Positions 24,492 to 30,515 of a stretch of 31,030 bases of DNA are shown piece after piece. The notes under the pieces were generated by a model. It ran no database searches. It was not told the DNA's origin and saw nothing but the letters and a program-made list of their open reading frames with translations. The stretch is from a virus, in IMG/VR virus record IMGVR_UViG_3300028175_000013, positions 1 through 31,030 of that record, one strand, 5' to 3'. The stretch's first letter is position 1. Every line of letters starts with the position of its first letter. The position numbers were made by a program, and so were the translations under genes.

Positions 24492-25571
24492 TTAACGACC
24501 TTGATTCATGGCATGTATTGCGTTGGCAATCTCGGTGACGATCTGGGGTACGATGGCATTGCCTAGTCCTTTAAGTCGGTCCACCCTTGAGGGTATCCCA
24601 TGAGCCACTCGACCCACTGCGGGTTCAGTTGGCCACCATTCTTCTCTGGTTCCGGCCTGTACTTTTCCTTCTTCTTTTTCCCTGCCCTGTACGCCATCCC
24701 GCTGAACTCTTCCGGCGTCAGATCCATCTTCATCAGGGCATCGAGTGCCCCGTCGTTGTTGTATCCCCGCACTGTCGGCGTTGGCCACATCTTCACCGCC
24801 CTGTTCAGCGTGATCTGAACGTGCTTCCCCGTCTTTGGATTGTATGCCCTCTGCCCGGGTTCCGGGGGTTGCCCGTCCTTTGTCTCCAATGTATTCAGGA
24901 GCTCGCCCGTCCCTGCCTGTTGAGCCGCTGGTGTCGGCCACATCTTGGGTGTCCCGCTGGCCTGTATCTCCGGTGTCGGCCAGAACTTCACGAACCTGTC
25001 CAGACTGACTGACTTCCCCGTCAATGGGTTGACTGCCTCTGTGCTTGTTGACTTCCGCTCGATGTGGTCGCTGGCTGTTGATGTCGGCATCATTACGCGA
25101 GGCGATGATCCAGACCCTGTCTCTCCTGTGGCTGGCATCTTTGGCACAAGCTGGAATAACAACCGGCCATGCGGTGTAGTCTTCGTTTTCCAAGTCAGAT
25201 AGCACTTGGTCGAGGCCCAGCTTGATGTGACCAGCAACGTTCTCAGCAATGACCCAAGTTGGCCTTGTGGTAGCCACGATCCGATGCATTTCTGGCCAGA
25301 GGTGGCGGTCATCTGCCGTGCCTCTTTGCTTCCCGGCAACGCTGAATGGCTGGCAGGGGTATCCACCTGTGATGATATCAATTGTTCCAAGTCGATCTGC
25401 ATCGAGTGTCCTAACATCATGATAGACGGGCACATCAGGGAAGTTCTTGTTGAGTACCCGGGTTGCATACTTGTCGATCTCACAGAATCCTATGGTTTCG
25501 ACATCGAGGCGGCTGCGCTGTAGGCCGAGGGCAAAACCCCCGATGCCAGAGAAGAGATCCAGATGTCTCAT
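24492..25571 (-). CDS. DNA cytosine-5 methyltransferase
   Basis: The 359-residue protein has the ordered C5-methyltransferase motifs: I DLFSGIGG (residues 5-12), IV GGYPCQPFSVAG with catalytic Cys73, VI ENVAG (110-114), VIII RRDRVWIIA (149-157) and X GNAIVP (337-342). It would methylate C5 of cytosine in host or phage DNA with S-adenosylmethionine, probably for protection against restriction. The region from about 160 to 320, where a target-recognition domain is expected, is unusually hydrophilic and glycine/aspartate-rich, with LADTGDTG, VADTSGST and VANADSAG elements. These arise from TGGCC(G/A)AC repeats that in the +1 frame encode W-P-T-P. It begins as ATGA on the primase-helicase stop. 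The target sequence is unknown. Confidence 0.92.
   Translation of the reverse strand: MRHLDLFSGIGGFALGLQRSRLDVETIGFCEIDKYATRVLNKNFPDVPVYHDVRTLDADRLGTIDIITGGYPCQPFSVAGKQRGTADDRHLWPEMHRIVATTRPTWVIAENVAGHIKLGLDQVLSDLENEDYTAWPVVIPACAKDASHRRDRVWIIASRNDADINSQRPHRAEVNKHRGSQPIDGEVSQSGQVREVLADTGDTGQRDTQDVADTSGSTGRDGRAPEYIGDKGRATPGTRAEGIQSKDGEARSDHAEQGGEDVANADSAGIQQRRGTRCPDEDGSDAGRVQRDGVQGREKEEGKVQAGTREEWWPTEPAVGRVAHGIPSRVDRLKGLGNAIVPQIVTEIANAIHAMNQGR
24563..25312 (-). CDS. Candidate overlapping gene in the +1 frame of the methyltransferase (249 aa)
   Basis: Within the methyltransferase gene the +1 frame is open from 25483 to 24563. A plausible start is ATG 25312, with GAGG 8 bases upstream. The product contains YLTWKTKTTPHGRLLFQLVP (about residues 38-57), three W-P-T-P elements (111-114, 125-128, 176-179), two related segments NP(L/K)TGK(S/H)V...(D/N)R(F/A)VK(F/M)WPTP, and ends LNPQWVEWLMGYPQGWTD (229-246). 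I recall this combination as a separate phage protein family often found with C5-methyltransferases. Seen here: one DNA stretch reads as both patterns. Whether it is translated, or is a frameshift relic, is not known. If a protein, its role (target recognition or inhibitor) is unknown. Confidence 0.5.
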   Translation of the reverse strand: MTATSGQKCIGSWLPQGQLGSLLRTLLVTSSWASTKCYLTWKTKTTPHGRLLFQLVPKMPATGETGSGSSPRVMMPTSTASDHIERKSTSTEAVNPLTGKSVSLDRFVKFWPTPEIQASGTPKMWPTPAAQQAGTGELLNTLETKDGQPPEPGQRAYNPKTGKHVQITLNRAVKMWPTPTVRGYNNDGALDALMKMDLTPEEFSGMAYRAGKKKKEKYRPEPEKNGGQLNPQWVEWLMGYPQGWTDLKD

Positions 25572-29837: not shown

Positions 29838-30515
29838 ATGACATTGCATACCGGGAAGTTCGTGGCTTACTACCGCGTCTCGACAGCAAGGCAAGGCCGT
29901 TCAGGTCTGGGGTTGGAAGCCCAACAGAAAGCAGTTCTCGATTACCTCAACGGTGGATCTTGGGAACTGATCGGAGAGTTCACTGAAGTGGAGTCAGGCA
30001 AACGTGCAGACCGTAAGGAACTCGCCGCAGCCCTCAAGGCCTGTAAGAAATCAGGTGCAACTCTGGTTGTCGCCAAGCTCGATCGTCTGGCCCGTAACCT
30101 CGGGTTCGTTGTCGCTCTCATGGAGTCTGGCGTCGAGTTCATTTGCTGCGACATGCCACAGGCAAACAAGTTCACCATTCAGATCCTCGCAGCCGTTGCC
30201 GAGAACGAGCGCGACAATATCTCTGTCCGCACCAAGGCAGGTCTGGCCGCAGCGAAGGCCCGTGGAGTTGTCCTGGGCAACCCTGACATCGCCAACATCC
30301 AGAAGCTGGGCGGTGCCGCGACCAAAGCCAAGGCCGTGCAGCATGCCGAGAACATCATGCCTGTGATCAACCAGATCATGGAAGCCGGCATCGTGTCCTA
30401 CAGGGGCATCGCGAAGGCGCTTGAGGCTCGGGGCCTGAAGACTGCCAAGGGTGGCGATTGGGGGCCACAGCAAGTCAAGAACATCATCGCGAGGGCAGGT
30501 AATGACAAAACCTAG
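29838..30515 (+). CDS. Small serine recombinase (resolvase/invertase family)
   Basis: The 225-residue protein begins MTLHTGKFVAYYRVSTARQG with catalytic Ser15 in YRVST, then GLGLEAQQ, the central KLDRLARN (80-87) and later AENERDNISVRTKAGLAAAK, which is the long helix E of serine recombinases. The C-terminal end SYRGIAKALEARGLKTAKGG is the helix-turn-helix of the DNA-binding part. It lacks the large extra domains of integrase-type serine recombinases, so it is of the resolvase or invertase size, but could mediate integration or gene inversion. It has its own promoter and operator. No attachment or crossover site was recognised in the window. Confidence 0.9.
   Translation: MTLHTGKFVAYYRVSTARQGRSGLGLEAQQKAVLDYLNGGSWELIGEFTEVESGKRADRKELAAALKACKKSGATLVVAKLDRLARNLGFVVALMESGVEFICCDMPQANKFTIQILAAVAENERDNISVRTKAGLAAAKARGVVLGNPDIANIQKLGGAATKAKAVQHAENIMPVINQIMEAGIVSYRGIAKALEARGLKTAKGGDWGPQQVKNIIARAGNDKT

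Follow-up and report, generated by a model that had tools for sequence, protein, structure and literature searches.

The analysed stretch of DNA (the window, a virus record of 31,030 bases) carries a locus that very probably encodes a two-subunit DNA cytosine-C5 methyltransferase (C5-MTase) similar to M.EcoHK31I and M.AquI, with a catalytic subunit, alpha, and, nested in the +1 frame of the same gene, an exchangeable specificity subunit, beta. According to the mechanism we propose, this one stretch would encode both subunits: alpha would supply the AdoMet-binding and catalytic domain (motifs I-VIII, then a long disordered linker and motif X), while beta, begun at its own internal ribosome-binding site, would supply the target-recognition half, composed of one or more exchangeable modules of ~40 aa that begin with WPTP and are followed by motif IX. 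The VADT-rich stretch of alpha would be mainly the out-of-frame reading of the beta modules and would need only to stay open for the ribosome to reach motif X. The two chains would join into one enzyme protecting the phage DNA against host restriction. Sequence comparison shows the two frames and how they are conserved, the pattern of selection on them, the signal at the start of beta, the order of the motifs and the exchange of cassettes; we infer in addition that beta is translated, that it assembles with alpha, that its modules recognize the target, and that the enzyme has an anti-restriction role, the last on the basis of the protection against host restriction conferred by phage methyltransferases.

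Both frames lie at the positions given in the preliminary description, and they are on the minus strand (Table 1), in a window of podovirus-like genes (T7-like capsid assembly protein, head-tail adaptor, terminase, primase/helicase, and integrase or invertase). The +1 open reading frame (ORF) occupies 24563-25483, i.e. 306 aa from a GTG at 25483; the start of beta is most probably the ATG at 25402, giving 279 aa. The three WPTP elements in the +1 frame correspond exactly to VADT-type readings in frame 0 (LADT, VADT and VANAD), and the correspondence between WVEWLMGYPQGWTD and VGRVAHGIPSRVDRL is likewise exact. That the two patterns represent separate phage families was also borne out: alpha matches PHROG_363 (3.7e-77) and the +1 product matches PHROG_1008 (2.7e-35; for beta, E=8e-35 over residues 5-277, nearly the whole length). 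However, the statement that frame 0 has all C5-MTase motifs must be corrected, as motif IX is absent from frame 0 and sits in the +1 frame, in the form of LNPQWVEWLMGYPQGW. No near copy of the locus was found in phage records by megablast. Elsewhere in the window, an integrase or invertase-like gene (29838-30515, plus strand; PHROG_125/PHROG_95) lies next to the T7-like podovirus module, which suggests a temperate or invertase-carrying podovirus.

Table 1. Features of the alpha/beta locus in the window
Feature	Position	Strand	Evidence or remark
Alpha: putative C5-MTase catalytic subunit, 359 aa, motifs I-VIII and X, without motif IX	24492..25571	-	PF00145, PHROG_363, AF2, Foldseek
Alpha motif I, DLFSGIGG	25536..25559	-	
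Alpha motif IV, GYPCQPFS, catalytic Cys	25341..25364	-	PCQP invariant in alignment
Alpha motif VI, ENVAG	25230..25244	-	
Alpha motif VIII, HRRDRVWII	25104..25130	-	
Alpha motif X, GLGNAIVP	24546..24569	-	
Shine-Dalgarno-like AGGA, 6 nt ahead of the beta ATG (25402-25400)	25409..25412	-	start and SD enriched among relatives
Beta: putative +1-frame subunit nested in alpha, 279 aa and stop	24563..25402	-	PHROG_1008, codon-position and start-site tests
Beta N-terminal region overprinted on alpha motifs IV-VIII, contains TSSWASTKCYLTWKTKTTPHGRLLFQLVP	25110..25402	-	conserved among beta relatives; alpha wobble weakened
Region of cassette exchange, coding for TRD-like WPTP modules in beta and for a disordered, VADT-rich linker in alpha	24636..25109	-	replaced in L171; module clustering
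WPTP element 1, LADT in alpha	24971..24982	-	
WPTP element 2, VADT in alpha	24929..24940	-	
WPTP element 3, VANAD in alpha	24776..24787	-	
Beta motif IX-like LNPQWVEWLMGYPQGWTDLKD, frame 0 reads TEPAVGRVAHGIPSRVDRLKGL	24566..24628	-	lies directly before motif X within one chain in L186, L196, L251, L260

Alpha has the catalytic PCQ, ENV and motif I in the order found in PF00145 C5-MTases, and its match to this family (E=3.1e-45) is confined to residues 1-199. It lacks the target-recognition domain (TRD) and motif IX that a single-chain C5-MTase has in the same chain before motif X, because motif IX lies in the +1 chain and residues 167-324 of alpha are predicted to be disordered in the AF2 model, in which the core (1-165) and the motif X helix region (329-358) are confident. 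With this model, Foldseek matched ~169 columns of M.HhaI, in the large domain only. Alpha on its own would then amount to the large domain only and, in view of the predicted disorder and the extent of the match, its VADT-rich segment looks like a linker imposed by the overlap.

The identity of the missing half is indicated by relatives with another architecture. In at least 21 of them (e.g. L186 and L196, and the viral loci L251, L256, L260 and L302) alpha ends shortly past motif VIII, and a single +1 chain carries the WPTP modules, then motif IX, then motif X, which is the canonical order of the C-terminal half of a C5-MTase. Therefore, beta corresponds to the C-terminal half of the enzyme, and the motif order in these split-form relatives identifies LNPxWVExLMGxP as motif IX. 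In a tree built from alpha N-termini with a quick method and containing long branches, the split form, with 21 rows, and the nested form, with 229, change into each other 8 times, and at least 3 of these changes are forced by well-supported branches. None of the 80 loci fetched by a query containing IX and X has a single-chain fusion, in which one frame would hold motifs I-VIII, the modules and motifs IX and X. L324, a candidate for motif IX in the frame of the alpha N-terminus, was rejected owing to an extra shift between motifs; L290, L298 and L301 show such a shift too, and all four were treated as broken or misassembled copies.

The modules of beta are exchanged as cassettes. L171 is a contig from an alphaproteobacterial MAG and is closely related to the phage of the window (94-98% nucleotide identity elsewhere, 98% in the flanks). 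In it, unrelated WPTP modules stand in place of 24636-25109, with both frames still open and with the junctions directly past motif VIII and directly before motif IX. The same pattern was found in 73 other pairs. Altogether, 638 modules were detected across 228 betas. Their median length is 39 aa, and most betas have 1-5 of them, with a maximum of 9. The same module types, defined by single-linkage clustering in which the largest cluster is probably over-merged, recur among betas in differing combinations. To judge by the module sequences, beta has the several exchangeable recognition modules of a multispecific phage C5-MTase, and such exchange and reshuffling is the behaviour of target-recognition domains. 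Three very large pairs (L027, L028 and L029) have betas of ~580-620 aa, with 8-9 WPTP modules in one overlapping gene, across which alpha is open for 660-730 aa.

The +1 frame is retained far beyond what the coding of alpha would produce by chance. In the window it is open for 308 codons, compared to a mean of 134 in synonymous-codon shuffles of alpha, all 300 of which gave a shorter stretch (p = 1/301); among 11 other long genes checked in the window, the longest +1 or +2 stretch has 170 codons. In order to avoid selection for beta, we collected 80 viral loci with no more of alpha than residues 1-158 as the query. A long +1 ORF (134-419 aa) is kept in every one of them, and the search for relatives with a broken +1 frame and an intact frame 0, proposed in the preliminary description, revealed no clear case among them. 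With the window included, the mean length of the +1 ORF is 245 aa, versus 44 in the +2 frame and 105 in the synonymous shuffles, and it exceeds the shuffles at p<0.05 in 79 of the 81 genes. Motif IX in the +1 frame, motif X in frame 0 and an open alpha between them are found together in 71 of the 80 loci, and 5 more differ only by missing the motif IX search pattern. Among loci found with beta as the query, beta lies at +1 of alpha in 90/90 viral or phage loci and in 80/80 loci from bacterial genomes, whose record titles name Bacillota, Pseudomonadota, Bacteroidota, Acidobacteria, Chloroflexi, Planctomycetes and Treponema; part of the latter are probably prophages or viral contigs in MAGs. We conclude that dual coding at this locus is real, old and widespread, and the same arrangement of frames is conserved in hundreds of phage and bacterial genes.

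With beta at +1, the third codon base of alpha is the second of beta, and the first base of alpha is the third of beta. Substitution rates were calculated for the alignable parts of 62 disjoint pairs of relatives. At alpha positions 1/2/3 they are.106/.052/.314 before the overlap and.063/.037/.294 past the beta stop, with position 3 to position 1 ratios of 2.97 (95% CI 2.52-3.55) and 4.64 (3.35-6.74), respectively; outside the overlap the pattern is thus normal for alpha. In the C-terminal half of the overlap (motif VIII to the beta stop) the rates are.223/.082/.101 and the ratio falls to 0.45 (0.40-0.53), i.e. the fast-evolving base is the wobble base of beta. This switch is seen in 39 of 40 informative pairs, and the opposite in none. 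The N-terminal half of the overlap is intermediate (.141/.083/.202; ratio 1.43, 1.32-1.55), as expected for constraint on both frames.

In 75 of 94 relatives beta is headed by a start codon with a Shine-Dalgarno-like sequence (SD) of at least 4 nt, compared to 30.7 +/- 4.2 in alpha-synonymous shuffles; for an SD of at least 5 nt the count is 58/94 against 12.9 +/- 3.1 expected. In Paenibacillus larvae phage Diva, DIVA_50, annotated by its depositors as 'g49 internal gene', is the same gene as beta. Given this enrichment and the annotation in Diva, independent initiation at an internal ribosome-binding site is the preferred route by which beta would be made. The retention of the +1 ORF, the codon-position switch and the start-site enrichment give strong support to the long-term conserved dual coding suggested initially. 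The other origin then considered, a frame-shifted relic, is not supported, since purifying selection acts on the +1 frame and a ribosome-binding site of its own precedes it.

It is barely conceivable that only alpha is functional, the +1 ORF being a by-product of codon bias and of the conserved frame-0 protein sequence. Synonymous shuffles already give fairly long +1 stretches (mean 105 codons), but the observed ORFs exceed these more than twofold in length; in the C-terminal half of the overlap the frame-0 wobble positions evolve more slowly than the first positions, which is unexpected under selection on alpha only; internal ribosome-binding sites are enriched; and in some relatives alpha is closed past motif VIII, so that just the +1 frame runs on to motif X. 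Barring an alignment artefact, the codon-position switch contradicts this explanation. We also consider it quite unlikely that the +1 sequence is produced by a programmed frameshift near motif VIII and fused to the N-terminal domain of alpha, even if the required shift is in every case +1 and in every case falls between motif VIII and the modules, and the fusion would show the canonical motif order. Both the open frame of beta and its codon constraint begin near alpha codon 57, a long way upstream of motif VIII; most relatives have a start codon with an SD ahead of beta; and the nested form would require a second shift to reach motif X.

Finally, beta could be real but function outside the methyltransferase, e.g. 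as an anti-restriction protein or a regulator in its own right that is overprinted on the gene. In favour of this, the fold of beta is unrecognised, and single-chain C5-MTases have nothing that corresponds to its 90 N-terminal residues. AF2 modelled beta poorly (pLDDT 62, pTM 0.31), perhaps because it needs the partner chain, and Foldseek with this low-confidence model found no match better than E=1; these matches are meaningless, and a fold assignment from them was dropped. Searches of solved structures with beta alone and with the beta profile gave nothing relevant, and the profile found none of the solved C5-MTases by sequence. However, the 21 or more relatives in which one +1 chain unites the modules with motifs IX and X and alpha ends at motif VIII, as well as the lack of motif IX and of a folded TRD in alpha, make a role outside the methyltransferase very unlikely.

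Several relatives are unusual. Three of 256 alpha genes (L208, L244 and L285) have a 6-nt in-frame insertion, TGA[C/T][C/T]G, in motif IV, which places a UGA two codons ahead of the catalytic Cys (GGFP*xCQPFS), with the +1 beta frame still open; recoding, a homing-site scar or dead copies are possible. In L244 and L285 an HNH-endonuclease-like insertion (HHPDYN...LCQKCH..WH) is found in frame inside alpha, before motif IV and just upstream of the UGA hexamer, while L208 has the hexamer without it. L194 and L239 are near-identical methyltransferase genes in two unrelated MAGs, and L239 has an internal stretch in which alpha and beta have exchanged frames, as though through compensating indels. 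L177-L181 are five copies with the same match values at separate places on one Roseovarius MAG chromosome (OX638333.1), representing either a repeated prophage or an assembly artefact.

Returning to the two-subunit reading, the chances seem evenly balanced that for most phage genes of this type, annotated as a single C5-MTase, just half has been described, and that they contain a nested +1 specificity subunit with up to nine exchangeable cassettes (multispecific), an N-terminal domain overprinted on the catalytic core, and a motif X repeatedly moved between the chains by small indels. Long same-strand overlapping genes are usually thought to be rare and young; the alpha/beta pair, present in phages and in bacteria of many phyla, is a textbook case of dual-frame selection. 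Automatic annotation overlooks the half that would determine the sequence to be methylated. Cassette exchange would be a natural system for altering methyltransferase specificity, and the existence of two interconverting architectures makes the origin of overlapping genes testable.

Bacillus phages SPR, phi3T and rho11s encode multispecific single-chain C5-MTases with exchangeable recognition modules of ~40 aa between motifs VIII and IX. The window resembles them in having several exchangeable putative recognition modules of this size, and differs from them in that the modules are in a separate overlapping frame. PHROG_363 (the alpha kind) and PHROG_1008 (the beta kind) are listed as separate families with no functional link stated, and the alpha/beta pair unites them; the overlap is visible in the deposited annotation of Diva. 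ShiLan-type phage methylases with an out-of-frame HNH (PMC11855218) likewise have a hidden gene within a phage methylase, but it is a homing endonuclease insertion and not a methyltransferase subunit. No description of a phage-wide nested MTase subunit was found in the literature searched, whose coverage excluded subscription papers and REBASE; the principle of overlapping genes has precedent, while none of these papers was found to describe its breadth, the cassette array in a hidden frame or the two interconverting architectures.

M.AquI (CYCGRG) is an alpha/beta C5-MTase split past motif VIII, with motifs IX-X in the small chain (PMC3404938). Relatives of the L186/L196/L251 type share its layout, with motifs IX and X together in beta. 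The window differs in keeping motif X in alpha and in having beta wholly inside alpha, whereas M.AquI divides the variable region between the chains.

The small chain of M.EcoHK31I, the subject of a 1995 paper, is reportedly nested in the large gene in another frame, and the beta gene of the window lies inside the alpha gene in the same manner. Although the preliminary description knew of no mechanism for such a locus, M.EcoHK31I (YGGCCR; Lee, Kam and Shaw 1995, cited in PMC3404938) is a described two-polypeptide C5-MTase with motifs I-VIII and X in the large chain and motif IX in the small one, the distribution also seen in the window. By this motif layout the window would work like M.EcoHK31I. 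However, the TRD of M.EcoHK31I is predicted in the large chain (PMC3404938), while the TRD-like modules of the window are in beta and the matching stretch of alpha is predicted to be disordered; therefore, we liken the window to this enzyme but stop short of counting it as a proven member of its type. The assignment of the M.EcoHK31I TRD to the large chain may itself deserve re-examination.
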